Shown piece by piece: positions 27,417-63,079 of a stretch of DNA of 64,000 nt (the stretch's first letter is position 1; each line of letters starts with the position of its first letter). This stretch comes from Geranomyces variabilis (lineage: Eukaryota; Chytridiomycota; Chytridiomycetes; Spizellomycetales; Powellomycetaceae). A program made the translations under genes and the position numbers. The notes beneath the pieces were generated by a model, which was not told the origin of the DNA, did no database searches, and was given only the letters and a program-made list of their open reading frames with translations. The stretch lies in the NCBI GenBank assembly GCA_027603065.1, contig JADGJP010000003.1, forward strand, positions 892,417 to 956,416. The letters are read 5' to 3'.

Positions 27417-30400
27417 TTATACCCGCACCTCCTCCGCCATCTCTGTATACAGTCCACCGTCCCTGCCCAGTATCGCGGCCCTGCGTGTCCACGCTCTATG
27501 CATCGCTTTAAGTGCCTCGACAGTCGCGAATTGTATCGCAACACAGGCGAAGACAATGCCCCAACCGGGTCCGCCAATGTCGGTCAAACCCAGAAGGGTG
27601 TTTAGTCCAGGAATATACGTCGCCAGCACGATTGCGCCAAATGAAAACACAAACGCGCCGACCAGCCACTTGTTTCCCCACAGTCCCACAGTAAACGTCG
27701 ACTGCGAGATCGAGCGCGAAAAGAAACTTTGCGCGAGCTGCATGACGGTAAGCGTCATGAACGCTAAGCTGCGCTGTTGGTCCAGGCTCGTTGGGCCGTC
27801 GACGCCGTGATCGCGGGATATCATGTACACGCCAAACGTTATCAGTGCTAGCATGAAGCCTTGCGCCATGACGAGTAGCGCGGTTGGGATGGATAGAACA
27901 GCTTCGTCGCGTGACCGTGGGCGACGAGCCATCAGATCGCTTTCGTGGGGCTCGACGCCCAGAGATAGAGCCGGAGGCACATCGGCAAAGATGTTTGCGA
28001 CAAGAATTTGAATGGTGGTAAATGGTGTGTCCAGGTCGCATATAGATGTGCTGAAGGTTGAGGATTTAGTTCAGGTCGCAAGAGTTAAAGATGAGCGCAA
28101 ACCCACAACCGGCTACTTACATCAGAAACAGAAAAATCTCGGCCGAGTTACAACTTAGCAGGTACACAATGAACTTTTGGATATTGTCAAACACACCGCG
28201 GCCTTCCTTGACCGCATGTACGATTGTCGAGAAGTTGTCGTCTGCAAGAACAATGTCGGCGGCTTGCTTGGTAATCTCCGTGCCCGAGATTCCCATCGCT
28301 ACTCCAACATCGGCCTGCTTGATCGCCGGTGCGTCGTTCACGCCGTCTCCCGTCATCGCTACAGAGTTCCCCTTTGATTGCAACGCTTTCACGATCTTGA
28401 GTTTGTTGTCGGGCGAAACGCGTGCAAACACAACCGGAAATGGATTTAGCGCCGCAAGTTGCTCCTCGGAGAGGAGGTCGACTTCGTATCCTTTCATCGC
28501 GCGGGATGTAGCGGCACGTGTAGTGTCAAGAATCCCAAGCTGGCGGGCGATGGCAGATGCAGTGGCAATATGGTCACCAGTAATCATGATGACACGGATG
28601 CCAGCGCGTTTGCAGGTCGCAACACTTTCGAGGACACCCTTTTTCGCCGGGTCAATCAGACCAATCAGACCGACAAACGTAAGCTGCTGTTCTGCGGCAT
28701 TCTCCTTCTTTGCTTCGATAATGCCGGCGGCTTCCGCGGGTGTCACGCGTCGCATTGCCAAAGCCAGAACGCGTAGACCGCTGGACGCCATGGTTGACGC
28801 TTTGTGAGAGACAAGCTCGATAAACTCGTCAGACATTGCTTCCGGAACGATGTTCTGAAGAAATGACAGAGGGCTCTTGGTATCCGGATGTGAAGGCGGA
28901 AGATAGTGCGTTGATTTGGCAAGGACACCCTCCGGGGCGCCTTTACAAAAGATAAATGATGCTTTGGCCGGAAACGCGCTTTGAAGTTCGCCAGCGCCCT
29001 CCGTTTGCTCGTACACCACGCTCATAAGCTTGCGGTCACTATCGAACGCGTATTCGCCGATTTTCTTCAGGCCAAGCGTGTCGTGGAACCACTCTCTTGG
29101 AAAGCCAGCTTTCTGCGCGGCAATTATCATAGCCACCTCCGTAGGATCTCCAATCAGTTTCCAAGACTTGGTCTCTTCGTCCCACGAAATCTGCGAGTTA
29201 TTGCATAGACTCGAGACCATAGTGCTAGCAAACAAGTGGCTTGGCACCTCGTTGAGCTCTTTGGTCAAGTCTCGGCCTTCTCGTCTGCTCTCTTCGTCGA
29301 ATGCTGTATTTTTCGGATCCCGTAATGCTTCGTCCAGCGGCAGGTATTTTCCTATTCGCACGTTTCCGACGTTTGGGTCCATGTCGGTCGAGTTGGTTAA
29401 CGTAAACAGGGCATTGTCGCTAGTCCATAGCTCCGCCGTGCCCATTTTGCCTTCAGTCAAAGTTCCGGTCTTGTCGGAGCAAATGACATTCACCGAGCCT
29501 AACGTTTCGACGGATGGAAGTTTCCGCACAATGGCGTTTCGTTTTGCCATCCTAACGACACCGAGCGCCATTGTCACTGTAACGACAGCGACGAGACCTT
29601 CAGGGATGACAGAGACAGCAAGCGAGACGCCGACCTTAATGACTTCGAGCGTATCTCGCTTATATGCGATGCCAATCACGATGATAAGCGCGCAGAGACC
29701 GACTGACAATGCGACAAGCCACTTGCCAAGCTTGGCGAGTTTGATTTGCAGAGCTGTCTTGCGCTTTGGAGCCGCTGTAATGGCGCTGCTGATGCGGCCA
29801 ATCTCGGTGTTGTTTCCAGTACGGACAACGAGACCCTTCGCGCGCCCGCGCGCAACGGTTGTTGTCATGAAAGCGTTGCCTTTGCAGTCACCGAGAGGGA
29901 GGCGGCGGGTTCGTTTGCGAATCGTGTGAGTGCTTTTTGGAACACCGAGGGCTTCACCAGTGAGGATAATCTCGATAACCTCGAGTTGTGCGATTTCGCA
30001 GAGACGTAGGTCTGCTGGTATCGCGTCGCCCTCTTCGAGAACAACGAGGTCACCGGGAACGAGCACGCTCGAGTCTACAATCTCCTGCTTGCCGTCGCGG
30101 ATCACGCTTGCTTTGGGGACAGTGAGCGACAGCAGGGCCTCCAACGCCTTGTTGGCCTTGTACTCTTGCATAAAACCGATGGTCACGTTCATAACGACGA
30201 CAATCATCAGAACCGTGCCTGCCTTGGCGTCATCGGTGGCGTACTGAACAATCGCTGCGGCAATCAAGATGAGGACCATAAAGTCAGTCAACTGCGTCCA
30301 CAGCATCGCCCATGGAGACTCGCGCGCGGGAGTGGGTAACTTGTTGGGACCGTAGTGAAATGTCAAGTCGGCAATTCTCTCCGAGGGCAAACCCGTCTCT

Positions 30401-30978
30401 AGACTGCTGCCAAACATCTCGGCGAGCTGAACAACGTTCTTGTCAAAGTACAAGGCCTGGGGTGGCAGCACCTTCTCCGCCAAGGGCATGGCCGGGTGTT
30501 CAAACTTGCTCTGATACTCCCGCATCAGCTTTTCCACGTCATCATGCTCGTCCGAGTCCACCAGTTCGCGCCAGTCATGCTGCGGGCAATGGCGGATAAG
30601 GAGCGCAAGCACTCCAGCACAGTCTTCCCTCTGCTCGTCAGTCGAAGAAGGCTGGCATCGGCGGTGTATCTTGAGATGGTGGCGCAAATCCGTAGCCGAC
30701 TTGCGATTAACCGCCTGACGGAACTCTTCAACCTCTTCAAGAAACTCGCCAAAGAGAACAAACGCAATGTCGGCCTCGGCAGTCGGGCGCTGTCTGAGCA
30801 GGTTGCCCTGCAGGTGACCCATATTTTGAAGCAGGCCCTCTAACAGGCGTTCCATAAGCGGCGCATCGAGATTGCGCATTTTGCCGCCTTTAATGCGGTA
30901 CTCGGTTACATATTTGAGACCCTGAAGGACGTCGTCCAGGGAAATATCTGCATTCTCCTTTGCGTCAACTAGGTCCAA
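27417..30978 (-). CDS. P2-type cation-transporting ATPase (substrate unresolved; 5' end uncertain)
   Basis: Ion pump of the P-type ATPase superfamily. Exons 30978-28121 and 28050-27417 (70-nt intron, donor GTAAGT) give about 1163 residues. Marks present: phosphorylation site [12 protein letters not shown] in M4 ([12 protein letters not shown]), KGAPE for ATP binding, GDPTE, and the hinge [15 protein letters not shown]. The actuator loop reads TGEAL, so the usual TGES serine is alanine. M6 reads [14 protein letters not shown], retaining the cation Asp. A helical N-terminal domain of about 200 residues precedes the transporter core and is longer than in SERCA or Ena pumps. The first in-frame ATG is at 30879 but protein-like sequence runs further upstream, so an upstream start exon is likely (an ATG at 31158 is a candidate). 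Na+, K+ or Ca2+ transport cannot be decided. Confidence 0.82.
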
Positions 30979-31558
30979 GACGTGGATATCGAGTTGATGT
31001 TCAATACTGGCTAGGAGCGGAGCGGCACACGGAGAAGAGGGGCGCTTTAGCCATGGTAGAATAAGAATTGAAAACTTTGAACGGAACGCTTGTGCTCGCT
31101 GTACCTCTTCCGTCGAGCCTCACGGAGACTGAACGTAGTTCTGAGCGGGACGGGTCATGGTTGGCCATTCACTGAAAGACAGGGGAAACGATGAAAAAGA
31201 AGACTGGTGATTCGGGGAGGGTAGCGGGCTTCGGGCAGACGACGATGCTTAAACAGCGAGGCTTGCTCTGGTAGATGTGAATGTGGATGTGGACGGGACG
31301 TTGGGGAGGTCGTTGAACTTGGCGACAAACCTTCAGCGGCACGAGGTTTTTTAGGCGGAGGGCTGTGACGTGGCAGCGAAATCCCAAACAAACTTAACAA
31401 ACCTTCAAGTTTCGACAGGACGCGGCAACGACAGCAAATGACGTTCGGGTTATGCGGGCTGGGTAGTAATGTAATTAAAAAAGAGAAACGGAACAGAAAA
31501 ATAAAAATAAAAAGATGGTGCGGAGAGGGAGGTATCAGCGACTTTTAGGTTCGTTTGC
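30979..31558. other. ATPase 5' region and DENND6 3' flank
   Basis: The frame continuous with the ATPase stays open to about 31107 without an ATG, so a first exon and an intron probably lie here. An A-rich tract (31476-31515) sits next to the end of DENND6. Nothing else was assigned. Confidence 0.4.
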
Positions 31559-40608: not shown

Positions 40609-42092
40609 ATGTCATCCTTCTTTGGGCTGCGTGCCCTTGCGCGTCGTCCGGCAACGGCCTTGCGCTTTTCATCCACACCCTTCCGCGCAATGGCCTCATC
40701 CTCCGGCAACCAGGTAAAGCGTTGTTGCCGCATGGTGTTCGCGAGCAGCAGTATCTGGCGAGTCTGATGCTCTTGCTGTCTTGCGGAAAAAAATCTTATC
40801 CAAAAACGTGCGCTGTTTTGACCGCACTCCGTCCTACAGTTGACAGTGCGTGAAGCGCTTAACCAGGCAATGGACGAGGAGATGAAGAAGGACAAGACAG
40901 TGTTTTTGCTTGGCGAGGAGGTCGCGCAATACAACGGCGCCTACAAAGTATGGATTTCCGCGATGTTGGTTGTGCATGTTCTTCAGTTGTTGGTATTTAT
41001 CGCGCTGCTTTTAGGTCTCCAAAGGTCTGCTGGACAAATACGGACCGGACCGTGTTATCGACACGCCGATTACTGAGATGGGATTTGCTGGACTGGCTGT
41101 CGGAGCAGCTATGGCTGGCCTCAAGCCAATTTGCGAGTTCATGACGTTTAACTTTGCCATGCAGGTAGGCAAGCGCAGGCGTGTGTCAGGGCGTTTTGCG
41201 AAGCGTGCTTGGACAGAATATGCATTGTCAAAATGAACTTTAGTACTAACAGATTTTTTTTTTTTCCGCAGGCAATTGACCACATTGTGAACTCGGCCGC
41301 GAAGACGCGGTACATGTCAGGTGGCATGGTGAACGTGCCGATCGTTTTCCGGGGACCCAACGGCGCTGCGGCGGGTGTCGCAGCACAGCACTCGCAGGAT
41401 TACGCGGCGTGGTACGGACAGATTCCCGGCCTGAAGGTCGTGAGCCCATGGAGTGCCGAGGACGCAAAGGGTCTGATGAAGGCGGCGATCCGGGATCCTG
41501 ACCCGGTTGTCGTGTTGGAAAACGAGATTATGTACGGACAGACTTTTGAGGTGTCTGACGAGGTCATGAAGGACGACTTTGTGCTTCCCATCGGAAAGGC
41601 AAAAGTGGAGCGGGAAGGAACGGACGTGACAGTCGTGGCGCACTCGCGGGCCGTGGGCCAGAGTCTTGAGGTTGCGGCGGCGCTGGAGAAGCAGGGTATC
41701 AGCGTCGAGGTGATCAACCTCCGCTCCATTCGCCCGCTGGATATCGACACGGTCATCAAGTCGGTCAAGAAGACCAACCACCTGGTCACAGTGGAGGGCG
41801 GTTTCCCGCAATACAGCGTTGGTTCGGAGATTTGCGCGCAAATCATGGAGAGTGAGTTCACACTGGCGGAATCAACTTGGTTGTGAGGTTTGCATACGGG
41901 AGCTGACTTTCTCTTTTGTTTACTTCTTCCTGATTAGGCGACGCATTCGACCACCTTGATGCCCCAGTTGCGCGTGTCACTGGCGCTGACATCCCAACTC
42001 CATATGCCAAGAACCTTGAGGACCTTGCATTCCCGCGCCTCGAATCGATCGAGAAGACAATTCGAGCGACCGTCAACAAGAGCAAGAAGTAG
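40609..42092 (+). CDS. PDB1: Pyruvate dehydrogenase E1 component subunit beta
   Basis: Mitochondrial enzyme subunit; with E1 alpha it decarboxylates pyruvate using thiamine diphosphate. Exons 40609-40713, 40840-40947, 41015-41164, 41272-41851 and 41938-42092 give 365 residues. The first exon is an Arg/Ser-rich mitochondrial presequence. The mature part starts [15 protein letters not shown] and includes [46 protein letters not shown] and [17 protein letters not shown]. The C-terminal domain has [12 protein letters not shown] and [16 protein letters not shown]. Length and order fit yeast Pdb1 (366). The final exon joins after IMES to give [17 protein letters not shown]. Confidence 0.96.
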
Positions 42093-43686: not shown

Positions 43687-44588
43687 AGTCCTCCTCCAAC
43701 TCGTTGATATGCCGGCCTTCCCGGCCCTTAATGGCATCCTTGTTGCTGGCCATCTTTTCCTCGTCAAAGAGGTGGGACATGCTGCGCGATTCGGCTTCCT
43801 TCTTTCGTTGCTCCTGGATTTTGAGCTCCGCTTGCCGCTTTGAACAAGAACATACACGTCAATTCTGAAAGCCCCACATTGAAGCAAACTTAGGAGGTTT
43901 CGCAGCTTACCAGCTTTCGAGCCACCTCCCTCGCCTCGGTCCTCGACTCACGATCCCGCTCAATCTTTTCCTCCGCCAGATCCGGGTGCCGCTCGACTTT
44001 TGTCTTGTTAAGCCGGTTCACAATGGCGTTATCCCGCTCCTTGACATGCACCCGCTTGACCATCGTGCTCCGGAAAAAGGTCACCTGCCCAGTTTCCATA
44101 CCCGCCGTCTTTTTCAAGTTGCTCCATGGAGAGTAGATGATCGTCAGGTTGTTCTTTTTGTTGCCCTCGATGGAATTGGCTTTTGTCAGCTGGGCAAGGT
44201 CACTGAGCAGCGCTTCGTCAATGTCTTCCCAGGACTGCCCCTTTGGAAGGCGGAGGTACACATGGGCGGAGGAAAGCTTGTCAACGTGGAACCAAACGTC
44301 TTCGGGCCAGCCGTATCGTATTAGCTCTTCATCTGAAAACGTCAAGGAAGTGCAGAAGTCGAGGAACGTTGGATTGTCAGCAGCTAGACCACGTCCTCTG
44401 CGGCCGCCTTCTTCACGAATTGTCGGAGTGGCAAGAAACTCACTTTCGTATTTATCTTTTCCCATATAAATCGCTGCTGGCGGGTCGGTAACTGCGAGGA
44501 AACCATCACAGTTAACATCCAAACGGTGGGAAGGAGAAGTCAAAAAGCAGCAAATATCCGTACCATTGCTTGTGAAGTAAAAAACCAT
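43679..44588 (-). CDS. CCDC25: CCDC25/Jlp2 (NFACT-R domain protein)
   Basis: Conserved eukaryotic protein with an NFACT-R (DUF814) domain; yeast Jlp2 is the counterpart. Exons 44588-44564, 44491-44444, 44332-43911 and 43837-43679 give 217 residues, close to human CCDC25 (208). The N-terminus is MVFYFTSN joined to [16 protein letters not shown]. The domain core has [30 protein letters not shown] and the Lys/Arg/Glu coiled coil. The conserved end is LEEDFM. The first exon is 25 nt. Its start is 101 bp from the start of the divergent 3-HAO gene. Human CCDC25 is described as a membrane sensor of extracellular DNA, a role not expected here. Confidence 0.93.
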
Positions 44589-44689
44589 GGCGGGCGAGCA
44601 TAAAAAAGTGACCAGAGCTTGCTCGGCTTCACGCTCAACCGTCACTTGTTTCCTCCGCACTTCCCTTGCATCCAAGTGTCCCCATCAAC
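44589..44689. promoter_or_regulatory. Short bidirectional promoter, CCDC25 and 3-HAO
   Basis: Only 101 bp separate the start codons of two divergent genes, so core promoters and leaders must overlap. No TATA box is visible. Confidence 0.5.
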
Positions 44690-45282
44690 ATGGCCCCACT
44701 CCTACCACCACTCAACTTTCCCAAATGGCTATCAGAAAATGCTCATCTCTTGCAGCCGCCGGTCAACAACTTCTGCCTTTATAACTCTGCCGACTTCACC
44801 GTCATGGCCGTCGGCGGGCCTAACGCGCGTACAGACTACCACATAAACGAAACAGAGGAGTGGTTTTATCAGCACCGCGGTGCGATGCTGCTTAAAGTTG
44901 TCGATGACGGCGAGTTCAAAGATGTGCATATTGGAGAAGGCGATATGTTTATGCTGCCGGGCGGCGTGCCGCATAATCCCGTGCGGTTTGCCGACACGAT
45001 TGGGATTGTAATCGAGCGGAAACGACCTGCCGAGTCGCTTGGTGCGTGTTTTGTCAAGCTCGGCTGCATCTTGCGAGGGAACAGGGCATACTGATTGATC
45101 GTTTCTCCATTGATTTAGACCGTTTGAGATGGTACTGTGAAAAATGCAATCAAGTCGTCAACGAGGATTCTTTCCACTGTGTGGATCTTGGCAAGCAGCT
45201 TAAGCCTGTTATTGAGGCGTACTATGAGAGCGAGGAGAAGCGAACGTGCGCAAATTGCTGTCATTTGAATCCTCGCAAGTGA
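44690..45282 (+). CDS. BNA1: 3-hydroxyanthranilate 3,4-dioxygenase
   Basis: Cupin-fold, Fe(II)-dependent enzyme of the kynurenine route to quinolinate and NAD. Exons 44690-45041 and 45119-45282 give 171 residues, normal for fungal and bacterial forms. Iron ligands can be placed: His in [14 protein letters not shown] with the following Glu, and the second His in [10 protein letters not shown]. Substrate-binding Arg residues are near RTDYH and in IERKRP. The C-terminus keeps the rubredoxin-like Cys pairs, CEKC and CANC. The intron lies just before DRLRWYC. There are no neighbouring kynurenine genes, so it is not clustered. Confidence 0.95.
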
Positions 45283-45497: not shown

Positions 45498-48400
45498 TCA
45501 GAGCACGAACAGGAACCGCAGGTCCTCCTCGCTCAGTTTGGCCAACGCTTCCATGTCCTTGCCGACCGTCGACTGGAACAGCATCTTTTTCTTTTCCTGC
45601 AACTGCAAAATTCGGCTCTCGATCGAATTGCTGACAATCATGCGGGTAATCTTGATAGGCCGAACCTGGCCCAGCCGATGAATGCGGTCAAACGCTTGAT
45701 CTTCCGTGGCCTGGATAAGATGTAAAAATGAATACCTGGAAAAAGTTGGCGATACACAAGACAAGTTATCAAAAACTTACCCTATGGATGCGAGAAACGC
45801 AATATAGAAAAGAGGAATCGTCAATTAGTATCAAGTGAATATATGAATTGCAATATGGGGGCTTTGATGCTTACGGGTTCCACCATCTATGTAGGCAAGG
45901 ACGCGTGGAGAAAGTTGCAGCCAGAGGTGAGTATGGTACCAGATGTGACATTATTTGAATGGCAGCCACTTACGGATCCATAATATAAACACGGTTGGCT
46001 TCAGTAAGGTTGAGTGCAACTCCGCCAGCCTTCAGCGACACGAGGAACACCGTGACCGCCGGGTCCGTCATAAATTGCTTGATCACTGTAGCGCGAACGG
46101 CCGGCGTCATTCGCCCATCAAGTTTGACAAGATTGAAGCCCGCGCGCGACAACCGCCACTGAATTAGATCAAGGAACGACACAAACTGCGAAAACACGAT
46201 CGCCTTTGCCGTGCTGTCTTCTTTTTGAAGTGCCGTAAGTTCCTCGACCAATGCCTCGATCTTGGTGCTGCTGCGCCATTTTGACATGTCTATGTAGTTG
46301 ACGATGGACCGCTTAACCGTGTCCCCGCCGGTTTTGGGAAACACCTCCGGCATTGACAGATCGATAGATAAGGGCTTGTAGCAGACAGGGCAAGTCGGCG
46401 TTTCATCTTCGGGCGAGCTTTGCAGATACTGTCGCGCATCCTCACGGCAGAAGGTGTGTTTGCATTTTGATGAGATTGCATCTTCAGCTTCCTCGCCACA
46501 AATTCCGCAAACAAGGATTTCTTTCGCGGTGTTGGCATCTAGAGCAAGGCGGGTAGTAACGAGATCAGGATGGTTGACAGCAAGACGCATGCGAGACAGC
46601 AGCGAAAAGATAGACGCATAGTTGTTAAGAACTGTCTCGGCCTGAACGTAGGTGGAAAAGGTGCGCGCTGAATCGCTGTACAGCGATTCGTACAGCTCTT
46701 CTTCTGCCTCGTTAAATACGTCGTTTCTGACGGTCACCACCCGCGGAGGTAGACCCAGCTCTTCGGTGCGTTCAACCTTGGTTCGTCGCAACATGATGCG
46801 GTCAAGAAGGGTGCCGAGCTTTTTGAATGCCACGAGGCCTTCGCCTTCACCTCCAAAGCGCTGGATCGGCTTCAAAATTTCGGCGTTCCACCAACAAAAG
46901 TGTTGATGGCTAATGTGACCGCATCCATCGCAGTGCCGTCTATTGCTGAATGACCAAGTCTGCATCTTGCATGGGCATTGCTTGCAAAAGTAGTAACTGA
47001 AAGGGTCGGCGTTCATAAACCTAATGAGTGAGTAAAGCTCTCCTACACGATTTTGGAGCGGTGTGCCCGACAACGACCATTGTTTTTCGCGCTGAAGGTT
47101 GAACACGGCTCGCGCTAGATGTTATTGGAGATGTAGGTGAGCTTCCACCCAAGCAACGCAAAGAGGCCTGCGCAGACTTGCTTACCAGTGCTGCAGGATC
47201 TGTCTTTGATGGCATGTGCCTCATCCAGCACAACTCGAGCCCACGGTATAGAGTGTAGAAGAGACTTCTCGTGGACTTTTTCGCCCTTTCGTGTGAATCC
47301 ATAATGTTCCTTCCGATAGCCTTGTTCGATGATCGCATATGTGGATAGGACAATGTCGTACTCCATAAGCTCGGCCTTCTTAAGTGGCCGGTTGGCGCCG
47401 TGGTGAAGCAAGACCTTAAAGGTTCCGGGCGCGGTGCGTTCCTGAAGCTCGGTCATCCACTGCATGATGGCAACGGTGGGTGTGAGGATGAGATTTGGGC
47501 GCATGCGCTTCGATACGAGTAAAGATATTGTTTCGAGGGTCTTGCCCATTCCCATCTCGTCGGCAAGGATTCCGCCATTAAAACGGCTTTCTTCCTGCCT
47601 CATCATCCAATACAGGCCCTCCTGCTGGAATGGCAGAAGCGTGACTGTGACTTCTTTGGGTTGCTCCGCGCGGACTGGTACGATGACCTCCATCTCGGTT
47701 TCCAGTTGTTCCCAGACAGTGAGCAGTTCAGGGTGGTGGTCATAGATCGCCTGCTTCGCCTTGTCCGCCTTTGCCACACGACGAGCGGCGGCAGCAGCGC
47801 CACGATTATTAGTCCTCCTTCGCGTCGGTGTAGGTGCCGCAACCGCCTCCTCTTCGGCATTAGATGCGTCTTCGTCCGACACCTGTACTTCTGATAGTTC
47901 TTCCGCTTCAGATTCCTCAACAACATCGGATCCTTTGAAGTCGCTCTCGCTGTCATCATCGTCCACGACCGCGGCAGCTCGTCTCTTTCCCTTGGCCTTT
48001 CGAGATCGCGGCGATGTGTTTTCCAAGTCATCCTCCGAGTCATTGTCAACGATGCCAGGCTTTGACAGCGCACGAACTTTACTGGCGCGTCTGGGCAGTG
48101 CGCGAGTGGTGCGCGGCTTTGGCTTGGAGGACGAGGATGACGGACCAATATCTTGGCCAAGCTCGTTGTCTGATTCCACTTCTTTCAAAACAGTCTTGCC
48201 TTTGCCTTTGACATCCTGCTTTTTGACAGCGCCCTTTGCTTTTGTCAGGCGAATACGTTTGGGATGTGGCTCGTCTCGCTCGCGGGATGAAGCCGATAGA
48301 GCGCCGACATCGGAAAGTTCTGAATCGCTGGCGGCCGGCTCAGCTTTCAGGTCCACGGCTGGCGCCTTGCTTTTTGCTTTGCGAGCGGAGGACCTGGTCT

Positions 48401-48608
48401 GGGGCGGTGGAGATTCGGGCTCTGCCTTGAACTCAAACGGATCACTGTCTTCAGGGTCGCTGTCCTTGCGCAAAGGAGTGGCAGGCTCTTTCTTGACGTT
48501 GGACCGCCGTGGTCGTCGCTTAAGAGTGGGAGTGCGATTTGGCGGAGCGGGAGATGCTGACGCAGACGCAGACGATGCCAGACGGGAGGATGAGCGCTTT
48601 GGAGGCAT
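45498..48608 (-). CDS. RAD16: Rad16-type SNF2 ATPase with RING finger (global-genome NER)
   Basis: DNA-dependent ATPase/E3 acting with Rad7 in global-genome nucleotide excision repair. Exons 48608-47186, 47114-45974, 45886-45875 (12 nt), 45781 (1 nt, proposed) and 45710-45498; the sum 2790 nt gives 929 residues. The N-terminal 290 residues are disordered, acidic/basic. SNF2 motifs follow: ADEMGMGKT (Walker A), VVLDEAH (DEAH box), LSGTPLQNRVGE. An inserted RING finger, CGICGEEAEDAISSKCKHTFC...CPVC, separates the ATPase lobes. Lobe 2 has AIVFSQFVS, KLDGRM and DRIHRLGQ. The MDPWWNPATEDQAFDR segment is continuous in the family, which is what forces the two tiny exons. It is divergent from the mitochondrial gene (270 bp). 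Confidence 0.9.
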
Positions 48609-60103: not shown

Positions 60104-63079
60104 ATGGCTCCGCGGCGAGGGCGTGCGACAGCAAAGAAGGAAAGCGATGATTCAGACTCAGATGGCGGCGTCGGCGTCAAAAAACCCGCCAAGCGCGCCA
60201 AGAGGGCCGGGAGTGACTGCGACGACTACAGCGATGGCGACGGCAACTGCGTGCGGACACCGCTAGCTTCTCGTGGGAACCGAGACAACATACCCGCGGC
60301 GACCCGGGTCATAGATAGAACAACTCTTGTGCGCAAGTTCAAGGTATCTGGCACGCGATAGAATGTTCCGCAATTTTCACCGCCTTTTACCAACTGAGGC
60401 TGACAAAACAGTTGTTTTCAGATACCGACATTTACTTCTGGCCAGCCAATCGGCGGCGGAATTAGAGTGGGAACTACATTGGGAACACGACCCAGGTCTA
60501 ATGTCTACAAAGGACCGATATACGACCCCGAGGCGGAGGACGCAATCGTGCTCCACCACCCGCGGGTTATGTCTGCAACTGAGAAGCTCGCTGCTCTGTC
60601 ACTCAAGTCAAAGTTGGGATCAAAGGGCGGGGTCGAGGAGGAAATTCACGTGGTTGTGGATCCTATGCTAGGCAGGATCTTGCGACCTCATCAGATCGAG
60701 GGCGTGCGGTTCCTCTACAACTGCGTGACGGGAAAAACAAAGGAGGGCGCGTTCGGTTGCATTATGGCGGATGAAATGGGACTTGGAAAGACCTTGCAGT
60801 GCATTGCGCTGCTGTGGACGCTGCTAAAGCAATCGCCCCAGCCTGGCAAGCCTACCATTGACAAGGTAGGATATCACTTGAACTCGTTGTCGCAACAGAT
60901 GGGAAGACTGATCAGCGTCAACTGACCGATTTAGGCTGTTATCGCATGTCCATCAAGTCTTGTCAAAAATTGGGCAAACGAGCTTGTCAAATGGCTTGGA
61001 CCAAACAGCATTCGGCCCTATGCATGTGACAATAAGGGCAGCAGGGAGCAAACAGAAAAGGACATGAAGAAGTTTGTCTCAGACAAAGGAAGGGCGATCG
61101 TACAACCCGTCCTGATTGTCTCTTATGAGACTCTGAGAGCCTATAGCGACATCCTTTGCCAGACAGAAATCGGCTTGCTGTTGTGTGACGAAGGTGCGCC
61201 ACGGCTGTCCAATACTTCGCCGTGAACCTCTCCTTCCACGGGCTCAACCGTACCCTTTATAGGTCATCGATTGAAGAACGCAGAGTCGCAAACATATGTG
61301 AACCTCAACCGCTTGAACGCAAAGCGGCGAGTGATCCTGTCAGGAACTCCTATCCAGGTTTGTGTGCGGCGAATGCCATATTTTCCATTTTGTTCAACGT
61401 CAATAACTCAGATTTCATTTAGAATGACCTGACTGGTGAGTGTGGCTCAATCTGTCGATCGCATTGATTTCACCACGCTGATGCATAGGGCAGAATATTT
61501 CGCACTGTTGAGCTTTGCAATACCAGATGTCCTCGGCAGCGGCTCAGAGTTCCGCAAAAACTTTGAGTTGCCCATCCTGCGCGGTCGTGACGCCGAGGCA
61601 TCAGACAAGGACCGTCTGATCAGTGAAGAAAAGCTCAAGGAGCTGTTGGCCATCGCAAACCAGTTCATCATCCGACGCACCGCAGAACTGCTCACCAAAT
61701 ACTGTAAGTACATCGTACTCGCTGATACCACAAGCTTGGCAGCTAAGTCGCTGGACTACTGATGTTTCTAGTGCCTGTCAAATATGAGCACGTCGTTTTC
61801 TGCAAATTCACCGACGTGCAGTCCAAACTATACAAGCTGTTCACGGTTTCAAAGGAGGTCAAAAAGCTACTATCGGGAAAAGGAGCTCAGCCTCTGAAAG
61901 CCATCACATTCCTCAAAAAGCTCTGCAATCATCCGGCGCTGATTGATCGCCAAGTTCTGGGATCTGAGGCGGACGAAATGATTCCAGCGTCGTTCAATTG
62001 GGATGGTTGTCAGCCAGAATTCTCCGGCAAGATGCTTTTACTCGAGCAGATGCTCCGCAAAATGAGGTTAGGGTGTGGAGCCGAACTGCGAGCATGTTAT
62101 TATGTTTCCTCATACATTGCCGGCTTTCATTTAGACAAACCTCTTCGGACAAAATCGTGCTCATCAGCAACTACACACAAACGCTCGACTTGTTTGAAAA
62201 GATGTGTCGACAGCGTAAATGGGGCTTGCTGAGGCTAGACGGATCCATGAATATCCAAAAGCGTCAGAAGCTGGTCGACAGGTTCAACGACCCGGCTGGC
62301 CCGGAGTTTGTTTTTCTCTTGTCAAGCAAAGCAGGCGGCTGCGGAATCAACCTGGTGTGATACGTGACAAAGTTCTCAGAGCGATGCGTACTATGGCTAA
62401 TGTTGTCATTCTCATGTTAGATTGGAGCGAACCGGCTTGTCCTCTTCGACCCCGACTTCAATCCGGCGAACGATGCGCAGGCGCTTGCGCGAGTCTGGCG
62501 AGGTGCATTTGCACCGTGTGTGGCGGGCCTTAGCAGACCAGCTGGTTTCTAATCTTCTCTGTCTTTGCTTCAGATGGACAAAAGAAGACATGTTTCATAT
62601 ACCGCTTCATTGCGACAGGCTCCATTGAAGAGAAGATCTTCCAACGTAAGAATGACTTCACTGCCCGTAATGACGCTCCAAACAATGGCTGTTCTTGACG
62701 TAATTTACGTTCTTCAGGTCAAGCGCACAAGCAATCGCTGTCTAGTTGTGTGGTGGACGCGGAGGAAGACGTCGAACGGCATTTTACCCTCGATAACCTT
62801 CGACAGCTCTTCCAGCTCAACGAAGACACGCTATGCGATACACACGATACGTTTAAGTGCAAGCGGTGTGTACGTGGCATGCAGATGAAAAAGCCGCCAG
62901 AACAGGAGGTGAATACCGGAGCACAGGCGGCCGACACAAGCAACTGGAACCACTTTTCGCAGCTTGAGCTACATAAGGTTCACGACCCCCTGCTGAGAGA
63001 GGAAGGCCTTTCATCCAAGCTGGCGACATACGTGTTCCAGAACAAAAGCCACGAGCAGCAGATTGTGAAGCTGAAATAA
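60104..63079 (+). CDS. RAD54: Rad54 SNF2-family translocase (homologous recombination)
   Basis: Rad51 partner that remodels chromatin and stimulates strand exchange. Eleven exons: 60104-60343, 60422-60865, 60935-61193, 61263-61357, 61423-61435 (13 nt), 61494-61703, 61772-62066, 62135-62354, 62421-62502, 62574-62645, 62718-63079; 2292 nt, 763 residues. After a short charged N-terminus come [24 protein letters not shown] (Walker A), [22 protein letters not shown] (DEGH box), LSGTPIQNDL, then lobe 2 with [32 protein letters not shown] and [17 protein letters not shown]. The C-terminal Cys-rich element (CKRCVRG) is the usual Rad54 zinc site. The RING finger and DEAH of Rad16 are absent. The stop lies within a few bases of the copia relic. 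Confidence 0.95.

Follow-up and report, generated by a model that had tools for sequence, protein, structure and literature searches.

A predicted one-nucleotide exon behind a 12-nucleotide exon in a RAD16-type gene

Introduction

Does a single guanine, G45781, form an exon of its own in the RAD16-type gene that runs along the minus strand (48608-45498) of this DNA? The stretch of 64,000 nt that was analysed is referred to here as the window. One-nucleotide exons fix the lower limit of spliceosomal exon definition, and they are easily overlooked in automated annotation (PMC12940212, PMC8831610). Nuclear examples are described for plant APC11 (PMC4674806), plant VPS55 (PMC8831610), and Fusarium CYP621A (PMC12940212). 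Mitochondrial single-base exons are described for placozoan cox1 (PMC5436844) and for the fungal rnl gene in Ceratocystis (PMC8208691) and Ophiostoma (PMC12308204).

A preliminary description of the locus placed the end of one exon at 45974, a 12-nt exon at 45886-45875, a one-nucleotide exon at 45781, and the start of the last exon at 45710. All of these coordinates and their flanking motifs are present in the sequence. Its introns identify the window as eukaryotic; the chytrid placement is a judgement of the preliminary description. The analysis below suggests that G45781 is probably a real spliceosomal internal exon located behind the 12-nt exon, a prediction that rests on the DNA sequence.

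Methods

A gene finder was trained on the window alone. Its first two settings over-predicted or merged genes and were discarded, and the third was used. Of the 48 introns predicted, the 21 with well-coding flanks were kept as references; a second set of 28 was formed by swapping one RAD54-type intron among the 21 for eight that were checked by hand against family motifs (all eight are 58-72 nt). The introns of RAD16 itself were excluded. The acceptor-strength, insert-composition, and shuffle tests used the 21 references, and the parse, intron-score, split-control, and intron-GC tests used the 28. The reference set is small and mostly self-trained, and some of its members are doubtful.

For the junction, all GT-AG paths, together with those using GCAAGT donors, were enumerated with one to three introns, allowing donors within 45995-45721 and acceptors as far as ~45641; the paths that were in frame and free of stops amounted to 104 parses. 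In the parse scores each intron costs 8 bits, a value that we chose, and the homology score was obtained from a family HMM built from bacterial relatives.

Results

The RAD16-type gene encodes a putative SNF2-family helicase whose two helicase halves flank a RING finger. The Pfam matches follow the order SNF2-rel_dom (PF00176), zf-C3HC4 (PF00097), and Helicase_C (PF00271), which is the order of the RAD5/RAD16 branch (SNF2-N, RING inside, Helicase_C). The best PDB sequence match was RAD5 (6l8n, 1.8e-38), and none named RAD16 was present among the best 60 of the 79 PDB matches. An NCBIfam scan gave matches that were all far below the curated cut-offs. The Cys-rich stretch FCKQCPCK...CDGCGH appears to resemble RAD16; the name RAD16, which is that of the preliminary description, is tentative as against RAD5. 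The coordinates of the gene and of its neighbors are collected in Table 1. Introns 0 and 1 were straightforward.

Table 1. Features of the RAD16-type gene and neighboring genes, in positions of the window
Feature	Position	Strand	Evidence
RAD16 exon 1	47186-48608	-	Start codon at 48608; open frame; Pfam SNF2-rel_dom PF00176, 106.9 bits
Intron 0, 71 nt, GTAAGC...TCTAG	47115-47185	-	SCST joined in frame to ARAVFNLQREKQW
RAD16 exon 2 (SNF2-N end, RING finger, most of Helicase_C), ending in ATGGATCC	45974-47114	-	Pfam PF00176, PF00097, PF00271
Intron 1, 87 nt, GTAAGT...ACATAG, just before WWNP	45887-45973	-	Splice-site reading
12-nt exon ATGGTGGAACCC, between ACATAG and GTAAGC	45875-45886	-	Family WWNP motif read exactly
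Intron 2, 93 nt, GTAAGC...CATCCATAG	45782-45874	-	Length and score inside the reference range of the window; its AG is the first after TACTAAT
Branch-point-like TACTAAT in intron 2, A at 45825	45824-45830	-	7.0 bits; 44 nt before G45781
One-nucleotide exon G (predicted), third base of the proline codon CC/G	45781	-	Sole AGNGTAAGT of the window; frame and motif
Intron 3, 70 nt, GTAAGT...TTATCCAG	45711-45780	-	Score 5.89, inside the reference range
Top-scoring branch-point-like sequence of intron 3, CGCCAAC, A at 45746	45745-45751	-	4.4 bits; 36 nt before 45710
Exon stretch under the rival acceptor TTTTTCCAG, adding YSFLHLIQ	45711-45735	-	25% GC over 24 codon bases
RAD16 last exon to stop, starting GCCACGGAA after TTATCCAG	45498-45710	-	Frame and parse ranking
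3-hydroxyanthranilate dioxygenase	44612-45091	+	Pfam
NFACT-R domain protein	43911-44330	-	Pfam
Transketolase-like, presumably of the pyruvate dehydrogenase beta type	41272-41851	+	Pfam
P-type cation ATPase	28121-31008	-	Pfam

We examined the reading frame across the junction. Exon 2 closes with ATG GAT CC and the last exon opens with GCC ACG GAA; between them, the 12-nt exon contributes A TGG TGG AAC CC. The 12-nt exon completes the first proline codon, encodes W W N, and gives the first two bases of the second proline codon, which is one base short without G45781. Three exons would supply the 15 nt that encode P-W-W-N-P, in shares of 2, 12, and 1 nt, and the fourth exon would come directly after. 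The preliminary description had placed G45781 between an acceptor and the strong donor GTAAGT, and the 164-nt gap between the 12-nt and last exons indeed holds CATCCATAG/G/GTAAGT, in which the single base has AG upstream and GT downstream. As that description also claimed, the frame shifts when the base is left out: the direct join of 45875 to 45710 runs into a stop at the 24th codon past WWNP, and it was rejected because of this shift. A single 164-nt intron with its boundary moved by one base would, by inspection, need TA-AG or GT-CA ends, and to our knowledge neither is a recognised minor class.

With G45781 included, the coding sequence is 2790 nt (929 aa), divisible by three, and the family motif reads unbroken. 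The claim that divisibility by three is reached only with the G holds for the exon set first proposed, and the length argument is limited to that set because the reading that adds YSFLHLIQ is divisible by three as well.

Exactly one of the 104 in-frame parses gives the unbroken family motif, and it is the one with G45781. By splice and coding score, with homology left out, this parse ranked first at 27.4 bits, compared with 16.2 bits for the reading with YSFLHLIQ; the next five parses by this score also take G45781 as a one-base exon. It was also first with the family HMM (142.9, next 130.1) and by total score (170.2, first by 25 bits; the next was the reading with YSFLHLIQ at 145.0). The one-nucleotide exon of the preliminary description is supported: it belongs to the top parse by splice and coding, by homology, and in total, and the split outscores a single long intron. 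In-frame parses that used an exon of 3 or 5 nt, or that left out the 12-nt exon, lost motif residues and had totals at least 25 bits lower. The insertion of YSFLHLIQ had been called the only other closure. An in-frame route of this kind exists, but six of the 104 in-frame parses keep WWNP, and the four besides this route and the one-base exon lose or alter motif residues and score worse.

Relatives were compared across the WWNP-A junction. None of the 31 bacterial SNF2 loci compared has a gap in the stretch aligned to the family motif; the search for these loci used the pattern YIMDPWWN among six, which favors WWN and leaves the NP-A spacing free. The five displayed PDB alignments, drawn from 79 matched sequences, have no insert at the junction and represent four proteins, as 1z5z and 1z63 are the same Sulfolobus-type protein. 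With the exact reading the Pfam Helicase_C match scored 77.2 bits, and the 8-residue insert lowered it to 70.3 bits. Eukaryotic relatives were sought in bacterial and archaeal genome contigs, which returned only the 31 bacterial relatives, and a search of viral contigs by pattern gave seven matches, none of them a relative.

The two introns that would flank G45781 fit the intron lengths (43-114 nt, n = 28) and the score range of the window, and their GC content is low. Among the unfiltered predictions, 5 of 48 introns exceed 114 nt, and one of these is a mis-parse of the RAD16 junction. Intron 2 scored 0.75, with 2 of the 28 references lower, and intron 3 lies within the reference scores of -5.9 to 10.9. 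Together the two introns total 6.65 bits versus -7.18 bits for a single 164-nt intron, so that the split gains 13.8 bits. As a control, 8902 GT..AG pairs spaced 154-174 nt apart were collected from both strands, and a one-base split gained at least 13.5 bits in three of them, all via G45781. In the scoring of the donor that follows G45781, the AG in front of this base was treated as exon sequence, and likewise in the control.

The individual signals vary in strength. The acceptors are weak, as only 3 of the 21 references are as low as that of 45781 and only 2 of 21 are as low as that of 45710. At position -1 the donors of introns 1 and 2 carry an unusual C, which only one of the 28 reference donors shares, although GTAAGT and GTAAGC are otherwise strong. 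The branch-point match TACTAAT in intron 2 is good and those in intron 3, CGCCAAC or TGATAAC, are modest; the best matches of the reference introns lie at distances of 10-52 nt. The acceptor CATAG/G contains the first AG after TACTAAT, and this argument is mild because only 19 of the 28 reference introns follow the first-AG rule. The acceptors at 45735 and 45710, both on the minus strand, are 25 nt apart and have similar scores after the one-base exon (5.0 versus 6.65 bits, with intron 2).

Run without homology and unprompted, the gene finder predicted 65 exons, of which a single one was 1 nt long, at G45781, and no other was shorter than 20 nt. Its third setting overlooked both intron 0 and the 12-nt exon and split RAD16 between two models, and the result is for this reason supportive rather than conclusive. 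Elsewhere in the window, on the plus strand, a RAD54-type SNF2 gene has a 13-nt exon at 61423-61435 (NDLT of GTPIQNDLTEYF) between introns at 61358-61422 and 61436-61493, implying that microexons in the window are not confined to RAD16.

How often would such a site arise by chance? The string AGNGTAAGT occurs a single time across the two strands of the window, at G45781. When the 164-nt gap was subjected to 20,000 dinucleotide shuffles, AG.N.GT fell in a usable place in 1890, was passable in 50 (both sites above the third-lowest of the 21 reference values), and was as good as observed in 1. Real sequence was sampled as well: of 3114 stretches of 164 nt from the window, 651 contained AG.N.GT, 10 exceeded the less strict thresholds, and 2 reached the observed quality; these two are the RAD16 locus itself, because only GTAAGT reaches that donor score. 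The presence of AG/G/GTAAGT at G45781 is more than chance.

The composition of the gap bears on its origin. GC content is 37% in intron 2 and 33% in intron 3, and the 28 reference introns range from 37 to 59%. This shared AT-richness may reflect a common origin from one intron within which the one-base exon was recruited, and it is equally expected of one true 164-nt intron. A search for repeats in 45600-46100, as would be left by a duplication origin of introns 1-3, found none.

We weighed four other accounts of the junction. The first is compatible with a one-nucleotide exon at G45781 and holds that both routes are used: inclusion of the exon would yield the working protein, while use of 45735 or skipping would give unproductive transcripts that tune the level of RAD16. 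Joining G45781 to 45735 is out of frame and reaches an early stop, making this upstream acceptor a possible source of unproductive transcripts, and early stops were found in five of the seven alternative products examined. The scores of 45735 and 45710, less than 2 bits apart after G45781, fit such dual use, but near-equal scores from a small model are no evidence of use, and we regard this account as unlikely.

Second, a one-base assembly error could have struck the junction, in which case the 12-nt exon would be followed by a single 164-nt intron and the one-nucleotide exon would not exist. Errors of this kind exist, and the unusual AT-richness common to introns 2 and 3 is in keeping with one intron. 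Such an intron, however, exceeds the reference range and lowers the score by the 13.8 bits given above, and the error must hit exactly this junction with an unrelated AG/G/GTAAGT lying between, which the shuffles produced in 1 to 50 of 20,000 depending on strictness. The frame is not broken elsewhere, whether in the rest of the 2790-nt RAD16 coding sequence, in nine RAD54-type exon pieces, or in a 2.9-kb P-type ATPase exon. We consider an error at G45781 quite improbable.

The third account also dispenses with the one-nucleotide exon. The 12-nt exon would be followed by a 139-nt intron that uses the acceptor at 45735, and YSFLHLIQ would lie between NP and ATEDQ. The product is in frame, open, and 937 aa long; its acceptor TTTTTCCAG has the highest score of the three candidate acceptors (6.3 bits), and the parse is second of the 104 by total. 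It lies 25 bits below the best parse, however, and its intron is outside the reference range. The insert is 25% GC, lower than every one of the 921 in-frame windows of 24 nt in the RAD16 coding sequence, although its codon score is low rather than extreme (120 of the 921 windows are equally low). None of the relatives examined, neither the 31 bacterial loci nor the five displayed PDB alignments, has an insert at the NP-A junction, and the only AGNGTAAGT of the window would become a coincidence. This reading is accordingly very unlikely in our judgment. Lastly, that the gene is truly frame-shifted, as a damaged allele or one rescued by ribosomal frameshifting, agrees with the frame of the direct join but is hardly credible, as the remainder of the gene is open and conserved, a classical slippery heptamer is absent from the junction by inspection, and AG/G/GTAAGT is left unexplained.

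Discussion

If G45781 is an exon, intron definition combined with stepwise splicing would be its most likely route into the mRNA. The 93-nt and 70-nt introns could each be recognised across the intron, which is feasible because both are short, and they would be taken out successively since two spliceosomes could hardly share one base. Removal of intron 2 first would leave ...CCCG/GTAAGT, a good donor for the second step; were intron 3 removed first, the acceptor CATAG would remain beside GGCC. Any base would presumably do at 45781, because CCN encodes proline, and selection would act on the presence of the exon and not on its identity. The order and efficiency of splicing are what we infer, and such successive removal parallels the proposal of intron definition and recursive splicing made for APC11 by Guo and Liu in 2015 (PMC4674806).

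A broader scenario can be drawn. Tandem 12-nt and one-nucleotide exons would spread a five-residue helicase motif over four exons, the introns would be removed stepwise, the competing acceptor would act as a switch between productive and unproductive RAD16 transcripts, and the one-base exon would have been recruited in a single ancestral AT-rich intron. Within the literature searched, it would be the first nuclear case to come from neither a plant nor Fusarium. We regard this full scenario as rather doubtful. The more limited prediction has consequences of its own. A case in one more nuclear gene, with short introns and an adjoining 12-nt exon, would suggest that one-nucleotide exons originated repeatedly, and stepwise, intron-defined splicing could be tested compactly on RAD16. 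The case also serves as a warning: in intron-rich microbes, what looks like a broken frame in a conserved gene may be a tiny exon rather than an error.

The literature searched, some of it by title and abstract and with preprints and most subscription journals outside, listed no one-nucleotide exon in a chytrid or in RAD16. In placozoan cox1 a one-base exon keeps a conserved residue, as in RAD16, but the gene is mitochondrial and belongs to another splicing system (PMC5436844). The rnl genes of Ceratocystis and Ophiostoma likewise have a one-base exon between two introns; they differ in being mitochondrial rRNA genes with introns of self-splicing type, marked by exon-binding sites or group II structure (PMC8208691, PMC12308204). 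For Ceratocystis, a ratchet-like order was proposed in which removal of one intron creates the site of the other (PMC8208691).

The plant cases are nuclear. APC11 has a single-base internal exon between canonical GT-AG introns, and in both APC11 and RAD16 a putative branch point lies 44 nt upstream; the identity of the base is not critical in APC11 and is synonymous in RAD16. APC11 differs in its base, A, in its 422-nt gap, and in its proof by cDNA and reporter constructs (PMC4674806). VPS55 shares with RAD16 a strong donor after the one-base exon, GTRAGT being conserved there and GTAAGT present in RAD16, whereas the VPS55 exon is conserved across land plants, is supported by RT-PCR, and is alternatively included in some species (PMC8831610).

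A close parallel is Fusarium CYP621A, reported with support from RNA reads of two species by Nelson and Syed (2026), who call it the first fungal case (PMC12940212); the Ceratocystis and Ophiostoma reports predate that paper, and their introns are not spliceosomal (PMC8208691, PMC12308204). Both CYP621A and the RAD16 locus are nuclear and fungal and have one G in AGGGT, an over-long gap, and a conserved motif that is restored by the single base. The CYP621A gap is 139 nt in F. graminearum, the exon is present in 20-24 genes and confirmed by RNA, and the proposal for its origin is recruitment inside one intron (PMC12940212). RAD16 is another gene, with a 164-nt gap and a full GTAAGT donor, the exon being predicted from one DNA sequence, in a lineage distant from Fusarium if the chytrid placement holds. 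One-nucleotide exons are thus already known, in fungi both nuclear and mitochondrial, and what RAD16 adds is the stacking of such an exon behind one of 12 nt.
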